Source: Streptomyces sp. V2I9
GTDB lineage: Bacteria; Actinomycetota; Actinomycetes; Streptomycetales; Streptomycetaceae
Direction: 5' to 3'
DNA: 64,000 nt
Assembly: GCF_030817475.1 (NCBI RefSeq)
Contig: NZ_JAUSZJ010000002.1
Coordinates: 2,954,001-3,018,000, forward strand
The translations under genes were made by a program, and so were the position numbers. Position 1 is the first letter of the stretch. The number at the start of each line of letters is the position of its first letter. Of the stretch, positions 22,167 to 61,505 are shown in pieces. The notes below the pieces were generated by a model that made no database searches, was not told the DNA's origin, and saw only the letters and a list, made by a program, of their open reading frames with translations.

Positions 22167-22199
22167 GTTCACCGAGGGGTGGGGGCCGGTTCACTTAGG
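22167..22199. promoter_or_regulatory. PHO box in the phoRP-phoU divergent promoter
   Basis: Three 11-base direct units in register: GTTCACCGAGG (22167), GGTGGGGGCCG (22178) and GTTCACTTAGG (22189). The outer two carry the GTTCA core of PhoP-binding direct-repeat units. The box lies between the phoR start (22093) and the phoU start (22292), as in the S. coelicolor bidirectional phoRP-phoU promoter. Confidence 0.85.
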
Positions 22200-22291: not shown

Positions 22292-22969
22292 ATGCGCGAC
22301 GCTTACCACGAGGAACTCGATTCGATCGGAGAGGGCCTGGTCGAGATGGCCCGGCTGGTCGGCTCGGCGATCGGCCGGGCGACCACGTCCATGCTCGACG
22401 CCGACCTGACGCTGGCGGAGAACGTGATCGCCGGCGACCAGAAGGTCGATGACCTCCAGCACGACCTGGAGGCCCGCGCCATCGCGCTCCTGGCCCGCCA
22501 GCAGCCGGTGGCGACCGACCTGCGCATCGTGGTGACCTCGCTGCGGATGAGCGCCGACCTGGAGCGCTCGGGCGACCTGGCCCAGCACGTGGCGAAGCTG
22601 GCCCGGCTGCGCTTCCCGCAGTCGGCGGTCCCGCACGACCTGCACGCCACCATCCTGGAGATGGGCCAGCTCGCCCAGCGCCTGATGGCGAAGGCGGCCG
22701 AGGTCATCATCACCAAGGACGTCGATCTGGCCCTCCAGCTGGAGCAGGACGACGACGAGATGGACCAGCTGCACCGCACGCTGTTCCAGCACCTGATGGA
22801 CGACCGCTGGAAGCACGGCATCGAGACGGCGGTCGACGTGACGCTGCTGGGCCGCTACTACGAGCGCTTCGCGGACCACGCGGTGTCGGTGGCCAAGCGC
22901 GTGGTCTACCTGGTGACGGGCGAGCACGCGGACGAGCTCCAGGCGACGGCGCCGGTCGAGGGGGCGTAG
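22292..22969 (+). CDS. phoU: Phosphate transport system regulatory protein PhoU
   Basis: Cytoplasmic negative regulator linking Pst phosphate transport to PhoR. 225 aa made of two similar three-helix bundles: the first around MRDAYHEELDSIGEGLVEMARLVGSAIGRA, AENVIAGDQKVDDLQHDLEA and VVTSLRMSADLERSGDLAQHVAKLAR (quoted as landmarks). The second has DQLHRTLFQHLMDD and VTLLGRYYERFADHAVSVAKRVVYLVTG. The two E/DR..D(L/H)..(H/N)(V/I)AK metal-binding helices typical of PhoU are both present. ATG 22292 follows AGAGGG. Confidence 0.95.
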   Translation: MRDAYHEELDSIGEGLVEMARLVGSAIGRATTSMLDADLTLAENVIAGDQKVDDLQHDLEARAIALLARQQPVATDLRIVVTSLRMSADLERSGDLAQHVAKLARLRFPQSAVPHDLHATILEMGQLAQRLMAKAAEVIITKDVDLALQLEQDDDEMDQLHRTLFQHLMDDRWKHGIETAVDVTLLGRYYERFADHAVSVAKRVVYLVTGEHADELQATAPVEGA

Positions 22970-23269
22970 GGCGGTTCGCGGGGCGTCGGACGCCGGGAGG
23001 GCGTCGGGGCGCAGGGGCCGGTACGGGGGTCACCGGGAGAACGACGGGGCGTACGGCCGGGAGCCGGGCCTCCGACGCCGTACCGCGTACCGCTGGTCGC
23101 ACCGCCCACCCCACCCCGTACCCCCGGCGCATCACCGGCGTACGCGCGTCGCACATACGTTCCTGCGCGTGTGCGCCGTTGATGCGCCCGCCGGGATGGG
23201 CATGCAATGGGGCGGGGGCGGCGCTCCATGCCGACGGCCGCCCCAGCCGTACGCCCCCGAGGAGGGACC
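22970..23269. other. Intergenic, no gene seen except leader of the Cys-rich gene
   Basis: About 300 very GC-rich bases. The frames are shadow-like. GAGGAGGGACC just before 23270 is the ribosome-binding site of the next small gene. Confidence 0.5.
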
Positions 23270-23419
23270 ATGGCCGATTCCCCCATGACCGAACCCCAGC
23301 AGGAGACCCCGACCGAAGTGGTGCACCTGACCGTGCTCGGCGCCTGCGGCTGCGGCTCGGGCTGCGGGTGCGGCTGCCAGTCCGGTGCCCCGTGCCAGTG
23401 CGGCGGCTGCTGCGGCTGA
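23270..23419 (+). CDS. Cys-rich micro-protein, 49 aa, metallothionein-like
   Basis: MADSPMTEPQQETPTEVVHL is followed by a C-terminal half in which nine of about 24 residues are Cys (pattern CGCGSGCGCGCQ then CQCGGCCG). The excellent ribosome-binding site (GAGGAGGG), the own terminator just downstream and a non-shadow N-terminus make it a real gene. Cys-Gly-Cys pairs of this density could hold several soft metal ions (Zn, Cu, Cd) or a metal cluster. I know of no named family with this exact pattern, and it differs from mycobacterial MymT. No neighbour indicates the metal. Function is inferred only. Confidence 0.8.
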   Translation: MADSPMTEPQQETPTEVVHLTVLGACGCGSGCGCGCQSGAPCQCGGCCG

Positions 23420-23440: not shown

Positions 23441-23476
23441 ACGGCGCCCGCCCGGAGAGATCCGGACGGGCGCCGT
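23441..23476. terminator. Terminator between the Cys-rich gene and the MFS gene
   Basis: ACGGCGCCCG (23441) pairs with CGGGCGCCGT (23467-23476); inner CCGGA/TCCGG also pairs. Lies between convergent genes. Confidence 0.8.
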
Positions 23477-59924: not shown

Positions 59925-61505
59925 GAGGAGCGTGCGGCCGAGCAGGTGGACGGCCGGGGCCGCCAGGGTCAGCGGCAGCGCCACGCCTGCGGTCATGTGG
60001 ACGAACCGGGACGGGTAGTCGTAGCTCGCCACCCGCAGCCCGATGACCGCGCACCCGCCCGCCGCGAGGCCGAGCAGCGCGCCCTTCGCGCCGACGTCGG
60101 TCAGTCCACCGACCGCGAGGCCCGCGCCCGCGCCCACGAGGAGGGCCGCCCCGACGGAGACCGGGCCGGGCAGGGGGAGCGCGCGGACGAGGGTGGCCGC
60201 CGCGACGGCCACCCCGCCGGCCACCACCGCGTCCGGGGCCGCCATGAGGTGTCCGCCCGCGAGGACCGCGAGGGACGCGGAGACGACCGTGGCCATCAGG
60301 CCGTACATGCGCTCGTCGGCCCCCGCGTGGCTGCGGAGCTGGAGGACCACGGTGAGCAGCACCCAGACGCCCAGGGTGCCCAGCAGCGCGGCGGCACCGT
60401 GCTCCCGGCCCGCCGCGAGGAGGACGACGTCGGCGACCAGGCCCCCGGCGAAGGCGAGCGCGATGCCCTGGCGGGCGGGCCACATGCCGTTGAGCCGGAA
60501 CCAGCCGGCGGCCGTCACCGCCTGGAGCAGCACCACGGGGACGAGCAGGGCGTACGTCCCGATCGCCGCGCCCCCCGCGAGCAGCAGGCCCAGCACGGCG
60601 GTGAGCGCGGCGGGCTGCATCCCCGGCGCGATGATCGGCGAGCGCCCCTCGGCGCGGGCCCGCTGGGCGTCGGTGATGCGGGCGTTACCCAGCGTGGTGG
60701 GCGCGCTGTAGTCCGCGTCGCCGGACCCGGCCCGCGCGGCGGTGCCCCCGGACGCGGACACGGAAGCGACCGGCGCGGCCGGCACGACGGGCGGTACCGG
60801 GGCGGCGGGGGCGACCGGCGCGGCCGGGACCTCGGGCGGCAGCGGCAGCGAGGCCGAGGCCCCCTGCGCCGGGAGATACGCGGTGTCGGCCGCCGCAGGG
60901 GCGGGGGCGGGGGCCGGGTACGGCTGCTGGGGCCGTACCTGCGGCTCCTGATACGGCTGAGGCTCCTGGTACGGCTGGGGTTGCTGCCCCTCGTACGGCT
61001 GCTGAGGCTGGTACCCATGGGGGTCCTGCGGCTTCTGCGGCTCCTGGTACGGCTGCTGGTGCTGGGGGGGCTCCTGCGGCGTCTCGTACCGTCCGGCGGG
61101 CGACTGCTGCCCGTACACCTGTGCGTGCGGCTGCTGCCCGTACGGCTGCGCTTGCGGCCGGGACGTCCCGTACGAGCCGGGCTGCTGCGTCCCGTGGCCG
61201 TCCGGCCCCTGCGGTCCGCCCAGTCCCTGCCCACCGTGCGGGTCCCCGTCCCGGCGGATCGTCGGCTGGTACTGCGTGTCCCAGGTCGGGGCCTGCCACG
61301 TCTGCGCCGCGCCCTGGTCGAAGGCGCCCGGCTCCCCGTGGCCCACGGACTGCCCAGCCGTCCCGTCGGGCCACTGCGGCACCGGCGGCGGCCGCTCCGC
61401 GTCGTACGGCCGGCGTTCGGCGTCGTACGCCTGCGGCTCGGCACCGTACGGCGACCGCTCGGGGTCGTACGGATACGGATACTGCTGATCGTTGCTGCTG
61501 CTCAT
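59922..61505 (-). CDS. Large membrane protein with Gln/Pro/Tyr-rich cytoplasmic tail, 527 aa
   Basis: Residues 1-215 are low-complexity with repeated QPYQEP/QPYGQQ units (EGQQPQPYQEPQPYQEPQ), then an Ala/Pro/Val stretch. From about 300 there are nine or so membrane helices (LTAVLGLLLAGGAAIGTYAL, VVLLQAVTAAGWF, FAGGLVADVVLLAAG, LLGTLGVWVLLTVVLQL). The membrane part has the spacing of small-permease or CdsA-like proteins, but I see no catalytic motif. It is 10 bases downstream of the MoaD-like gene, probably co-transcribed. Function unknown. Confidence 0.75.
   Translation of the reverse strand: MSSSNDQQYPYPYDPERSPYGAEPQAYDAERRPYDAERPPPVPQWPDGTAGQSVGHGEPGAFDQGAAQTWQAPTWDTQYQPTIRRDGDPHGGQGLGGPQGPDGHGTQQPGSYGTSRPQAQPYGQQPHAQVYGQQSPAGRYETPQEPPQHQQPYQEPQKPQDPHGYQPQQPYEGQQPQPYQEPQPYQEPQVRPQQPYPAPAPAPAAADTAYLPAQGASASLPLPPEVPAAPVAPAAPVPPVVPAAPVASVSASGGTAARAGSGDADYSAPTTLGNARITDAQRARAEGRSPIIAPGMQPAALTAVLGLLLAGGAAIGTYALLVPVVLLQAVTAAGWFRLNGMWPARQGIALAFAGGLVADVVLLAAGREHGAAALLGTLGVWVLLTVVLQLRSHAGADERMYGLMATVVSASLAVLAGGHLMAAPDAVVAGGVAVAAATLVRALPLPGPVSVGAALLVGAGAGLAVGGLTDVGAKGALLGLAAGGCAVIGLRVASYDYPSRFVHMTAGVALPLTLAAPAVHLLGRTLL

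Follow-up and report, generated by a model that had tools for sequence, protein, structure and literature searches.

The window, a stretch of 64,000 nucleotides from Streptomyces sp. V2I9, contains on its forward strand a small gene for a Cys-rich peptide, located 3′ of phoU. By position and family, this gene is the ortholog of mtpA (SCO4227). The features of the locus are as follows.

22167–22199, + strand: two PHO-box-like GTTCAC units at 22167 and 22189, 22 nt apart, in the gap between phoR and phoU, seen in a looser look.
22292–22969, + strand: phoU, the conserved 5′ neighbor (Pfam PF01895, E = 1e-36; TIGR02135, E = 9.9e-58).
23171–23210, + strand: candidate promoter-type element GTGCGCCGTTGATGCGCCC-N-GGGCATGCAATGG, with TTGATG at 23179 and TGCAAT at 23203, from the alignment of upstream regions.
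23259–23269, + strand: ribosome-binding site (RBS) GAGGAGGG and a 3-nt spacer, with similar sites in the 20 loci compared.
23270–23419, + strand: the mtpA ortholog, encoding a metallothionein-like peptide of 49 residues, assigned from its open reading frame, conservation, synteny and printed name.
23345–23413, + strand: Cys domain CGCGSGCGCGCQSGAPCQCGGCC, comprising the seven family-wide cysteines and two optional ones, from the alignment of relatives.
23441–23476, + strand: 3′ hairpin lacking a T-run, a probable terminator detected by folding and negative in the terminator scanner.

The nine cysteines of the window peptide lie at residues 26–48 in a Cys/Gly domain, and the peptide contains no Phe, Trp or Tyr and a single His. 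In agreement with the initial annotation, which described a 49-residue peptide with nine cysteines in its last 24 residues, this is the densest Cys stretch of the whole window, whose six frames hold 939 stop-to-stop segments of 24 residues or longer (9 cysteines per 24 residues; runners-up 8, 7 and 6). The segment ranking second is 160 residues long, lies at 61006 on the + strand and has 8 cysteines in 24 residues. The strong RBS described earlier is likewise present, with GAGGAGGG ending 3 nt ahead of the mtpA ATG. The ATG lies 300 nt 3′ of the end of phoU, and the next gene 3′ of mtpA, on the opposite strand, encodes an MFS transporter. No signal sequence was evident by eye in the window peptide, suggesting that MtpA is probably cytosolic; the N-terminal half of the peptide is probably disordered. 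The closest named peptide matches came from Streptomyces sp. WZ.A104, S. globisporus and S. rubiginosohelvolus.

Conservation of mtpA and its cysteine signature

Used alone as the query, the window peptide found matches in 32 of 41 genomes, its own genome counted. A profile of 20 members matched 270 of 293 genomes sampled from the order and 53 of 394 sampled from the class; 16 of the genomes matching in the class search belonged to other orders, and a single family (f19) accounted for 13 of these. A phylum-wide search matched nine of 296 genomes, all of the window's genus, a count that does not show absence elsewhere because at most 23 candidates were scored per genome. Fourteen Streptomyces genomes lacked a first match. 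A wider profile revealed a diverged gene in ten of these (11 peptides) and no credible mtpA in the other four (G060, G068, G108 and G167), indicating that the gene is not universal in Streptomyces. No relative was detected in a plasmid collection of 72,556 records, where the low-complexity filter of BLAST may hide some.

mtpA is a conserved protein-coding gene. The core pattern fits 137 of 138 streptomycete loci, with synonymous variation in the Cys, Gly, Ser and Pro codons; this pattern fixes seven cysteines, and their constancy in the 138-locus table is therefore by construction. Although TGC/GGC repeats in GC-rich DNA can yield Cys/Gly runs, and several open frames overlap mtpA at the locus, the probability that the reading frame is non-coding or a chance frame is negligible, given the matches across the order, the RBS present across the 20 loci compared, the synonymous codon changes among loci and the identical Cys spacing in diverged members. 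One genome (G158) carries two mtpA-like genes (L195 and L205), one of which lies beside phoU in the stretches compared.

The signature C-x-C-x3-C-x-C-x-C-x5-C-x-C was found in 131 distinct peptides from streptomycetes, 12 from family f19 and four from a further family (f3). Intervening residues vary while the spacing of the seven cysteines stays, and zero to two extra cysteines occur beyond the signature, the eighth and ninth being optional. The motif used to collect these 147 peptides fixes the first five cysteines, which leaves the sixth and seventh as the free test; both are in place in 147 of 147. More generally, the collecting motifs fix seven cysteines in the 138-locus table, three in the 20-locus set and five in the 147-peptide set, and these sets are not independent tests. 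An independent test is provided by the 11 diverged peptides, which were found by profile without the motif and all keep the seven-Cys spacing. The initial annotation had named beforehand the lack of a conserved Cys pattern in orthologs as a refuting result, and by these motif-free peptides the pattern held. Three of the first 180 loci (L039, L040 and L111) escape the motif; in L039 and L040 the spacing is intact and the changes affect other residues.

The Cys part is conserved among members, whereas the sequence N-terminal to it varies or is almost missing. The shortest members have ~27 residues when translation is assumed to start at the nearest ATG, which points to the Cys domain as the functional portion of the peptide. 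No His occurs in the Cys domain of 129 of the 131 streptomycete peptides, and some homologs carry a Phe ahead of it.

The relatives in f19 and f3, two further actinomycete families, lie in different gene contexts. For f19, 12 of the 13 matching genomes were compared; the peptides have 34–37 residues, apart from one of 65 by the script's start choice, and cydA–cydB (cytochrome bd) lie near the gene in eight of the 12 loci. For f3, the gene lies 5′ of a thiolase-like gene in the four loci compared, with peptides of 62–63 residues. Neighboring genes were called by a rough GC3 script, and their ends are approximate. The Streptomyces upstream element was not seen by eye before the f19 and f3 relatives.

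Genomic setting and identity of the gene

In the first set, phoU lies upstream of mtpA in 20 of 20 loci. Of the 138 streptomycete loci, 136 have phoU 5′ of mtpA and in the same orientation, at a median of 184 nt from mtpA (range, 94–3222 nt). The adjacency to phoU reported for the window, where phoU is directly 5′, is thus shared by nearly all streptomycete loci compared. In the remaining two loci, phoU is on the other side and faces mtpA, and the upstream element is still present, as if the mtpA unit had been inverted as a whole. Reversed units that retain the element suggest that mtpA is an autonomous transcription unit. Reversal of the unit relative to phoU was recorded in L063, L065 and also L194; the element is kept in L063 and, with one base different, in L065. 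Of the genes for the 11 diverged peptides, nine have phoU upstream and one has it facing; the 3.1-kb locus of the last contains no phoU.

In 23 of the 138 loci, mtpA is followed in the same orientation by an open frame for an 82-residue ortholog of SCO4226, at most ~0.7 kb from the mtpA start. Pfam assigns one of these proteins to "Nickel responsive protein SCO4226-like" (E = 8e-26); another has just one relative of solved structure at E up to 0.001, the nickel responsive protein 4OI3/4OI6, which we take to be SCO4226 itself. The stretches compared at the other 115 loci, including the window, contain no SCO4226 relative. A PF14026 scan of the window's own genome also gave no match, which shows little, as the control genomes gave none either. 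SCO4226 is described as nickel-binding and nickel-induced (PMC4186839), and the available text of that paper mentions neither mtpA, SCO4227 nor phoU.

We identify the window gene as SCO4227/mtpA because it lies 3′ of phoU, because a SCO4226 ortholog follows in the 23 loci, and because the gene numbers in the excerpt of PMC4991794 give the order SCO4226–SCO4227–phoU (SCO4228). The MtpA/SCO4227 genes of S. lividans and S. coelicolor, whose product is called a metallothionein in print, likewise lie 3′ of phoU and beside phoR–phoP; the 61 named loci compared here include no record from either species. The window differs from the MtpA/SCO4227 locus in that the opposite-strand MFS transporter gene, not SCO4226, comes next. 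SCO4227 is tabulated as "Metallothionein protein (mtpA)" in the part of PMC2267785 available. The peptide is thus already named and in print, and the statement of the initial annotation that it matches no named metallothionein and may be new fails against PMC2267785 and the accessible portion of PMC3282765. The remark that the gene is placed away from metal genes describes the window correctly, where the MFS transporter gene is next, but not the 23 loci in which the ortholog of nickel-binding SCO4226 follows.

Neither Pfam nor NCBIfam contains a model that matches the window peptide, and no usable family emerged when 21 diverse members were scanned. Annotation pipelines that use these collections may therefore miss the peptide or leave it unnamed.

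Transcription signals around mtpA

Alignment of 130 streptomycete upstream regions revealed a strongly conserved block consisting of GTGCGCCGTTGATGCGCCC, a variable middle and GGGCATGCAATGG, with the core of the left half present in 120 of the 130. In the window, TTGATG and TGCAAT are separated by 18 nt, resembling a −35/−10 pair, and the element at 23171–23210 would act as a promoter. Over the 138 loci, the spacing between the halves is N22 in 71, N23–24 in 22, N30 in one and N12–13 in 17, with no fit in 27; the N12–13 class is probably an artefact of the pattern ending at an inner GATGG, as in the window, and N22, which occurs in at least 71 of 138 and is also the spacing of the window element, is the commonest. 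The window's own genome contains a single copy of the exact bipartite pattern, and looser matches there to the left half are at control level (27 and 23 vs 26 and 24).

The hairpin 3′ of mtpA is real. It dominates a 71-nt stretch with a folding energy of −43.6 kcal/mol (z = −4.86), and none of 200 shuffles was as stable. Stable folding is also recurrent: the 80 nt past the stop codon reached z < −2 at 104 of the 131 loci with distinct peptides, compared with three of 60 control stretches taken 500 nt ahead of the start. The claim that the gene has its own terminator is supported in so far as the hairpin is stable and recurrent; against it, there is no T-run, and the terminator pattern scanner, which needs one, found no terminator 3′ of mtpA. 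The hairpin probably terminates transcription. Collectively, these features suggest that mtpA is transcribed independently, from a conserved promoter of its own and with a hairpin at its 3′ end.

Compared with the GTTCAC pair ahead of phoU, the phoU–mtpA gap contains a lone GGTCAC-type unit, at 23028. These units were recognized by likeness to the general PHO-box consensus; a strict scan for two adjacent units gave no match even before phoU and thus has no power. No metal-responsive operator was recognized at mtpA, and Rfam gave no match at gathering level between 22000 and 24000. Published accounts conflict on the dependence of mtpA/SCO4227 on PhoP: in the passages available, PMC3282765 reports that mtpA is induced under phosphate limitation independently of PhoP, whereas PMC4991794 places SCO4226 and SCO4227 under PhoRP regulation. 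The private element and the lone GGTCAC-type unit would fit PhoP-independent expression better than PhoRP regulation.

Function of the peptide

The general sequence features of metallothioneins are present, namely very small size, Cys richness, CxC motifs and, in the window peptide, the lack of aromatic residues. Judged from sequence, mtpA of this Streptomyces is likely to encode a cytosolic metallothionein-like thiolate metal buffer expressed in phosphate starvation. In the proposed mechanism, the domain of seven to nine cysteines would wrap soft metal ions as a metal–thiolate cluster, and MtpA, which would be expressed in phosphate-starved mycelium, would buffer Cu(I), Zn or Ni and perhaps scavenge oxidants as well. 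The initial annotation had suggested a new metal-buffering peptide; with the conserved Cys pattern, metal buffering is the best reading and metal binding is predicted, while the novelty is lost to the existing name. As to the metal, the SCO4226 gene present at a minority of loci hints at nickel, a likeness to short fungal Cu(I) metallothioneins hints at copper, and zinc enters by default; the literature searched yielded no metal-binding measurement or bound metal for MtpA.

The fungal proteins in question are the Neurospora-type Cu(I)-metallothioneins, which have about 25 residues and seven cysteines in CxC pairs. The shortest mtpA relatives, at ~27 residues, resemble them, without a claim of common descent, and the fungal proteins did not come up in a profile search against solved structures. 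The single match of that search, the hypothetical protein AQ_1857 (E = 0.014), was taken as chance. Pfam Metallothio_5 (PF02067) weakly matched two of the 21 diverse relatives (best E = 0.0015), none of eight that were rescanned and not the window peptide; the likeness is probably one of shared Cys composition. Among bacterial metallothioneins, the SmtA/BmtA profile PF02069 had no match in the window's own genome and did match the positive control, Synechococcus elongatus. SmtA/BmtA are small and Cys-rich like MtpA, with a proposed thiolate cluster, and SmtA-type proteins have His clusters and a zinc finger. MymT is actinobacterial and Cys-rich, as MtpA is, with cysteines more widely spaced than those of MtpA. 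The His-containing clusters of the SmtA type (PMC7387436) distinguish it from MtpA, whose Cys domain is almost without His. According to the excerpt of the same article, the mycobacterial MymT is crucial for copper detoxification, and SmtA and MymT were the only two bacterial metallothioneins functionally investigated by 2020.

A mainly redox function is an unlikely alternative, in which the thiols, with or without Zn, would scavenge oxidants or form a Zn/redox switch with PhoU and phosphate signalling, and metal storage would be secondary. A review hypothesises, in the part available, a role for PhoU and the mtpA product in sensing or resisting oxidative stress (PMC7866108), and the cytochrome bd genes near the f19 relatives are consistent with such a role. 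The mtpA cluster also responds to the HbpS–SenS–SenR redox system. However, the excerpt describing this response reports that SCO4226–SCO4230 is lowered, not raised, under oxidative stress in the wild type, in an HbpS–SenS–SenR-dependent manner (PMC4991794), and a simple antioxidant role therefore fits poorly. In addition, the tight, fixed spacing of the seven cysteines argues for a metal cluster over loose thiols.

A role for MtpA as a metallochaperone that delivers one metal, for example Ni or Cu, to SCO4226 or another partner is improbable. The SCO4226 orthologs encoded 3′ of mtpA on the same strand (23 of 138 loci), and the nickel binding and nickel induction of SCO4226, point in this direction, but no SCO4226 relative is found in the compared stretch of the other 115, window included, and chaperones usually carry one or two metal-binding Cys pairs as opposed to the seven to nine cysteines seen here. 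Even less probable is the precursor of a ribosomally made modified peptide, with the Cys part as core, which the initial annotation had offered as another option. The small size, distinct N-terminal region and Cys-rich C terminus would suit a precursor; however, such peptides usually have a conserved leader and a variable core. Here it is the supposed core that is conserved and the N-terminal part that varies, being nearly absent in the ~27-residue members (nearest-ATG starts), and no enzyme gene is a constant neighbor among the loci compared, which together make a precursor unlikely.

With MtpA taken as a metallothionein-like metal buffer, a broader reading can be put forward, tentatively. 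MtpA and its relatives may constitute a class of bacterial metallothioneins in their own right, very short (as few as ~27 residues), marked by the seven-Cys signature and lacking a Pfam or NCBIfam model. In Streptomyces, a dedicated promoter, its exact form present once in the genome, and a PhoP-bypassing phosphate-starvation signal would raise metal buffering as phosphate ligands run out, with the same module placed in a cytochrome bd setting in another actinomycete family. The PhoRP regulation reported in the excerpt of PMC4991794 lowers its odds. The additions made here are modest: a conserved private element ahead of mtpA, the spacing signature of the cysteines, and the cytochrome bd context of the f19 relatives. 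The retention of mtpA beside phoU, with its own conserved element, in most Streptomyces genomes searched would tie metal or redox buffering to phosphate starvation, a condition with a bearing on antibiotic production.

In family f19, a further gene accompanies the Cys-rich one. A protein of 112–193 residues, one member of which was scanned and matched no Pfam family, is encoded 3′ of the Cys-rich gene in ten of the 12 loci (L101, L102, L104–L110 and L119) and carries cysteines near its C terminus.
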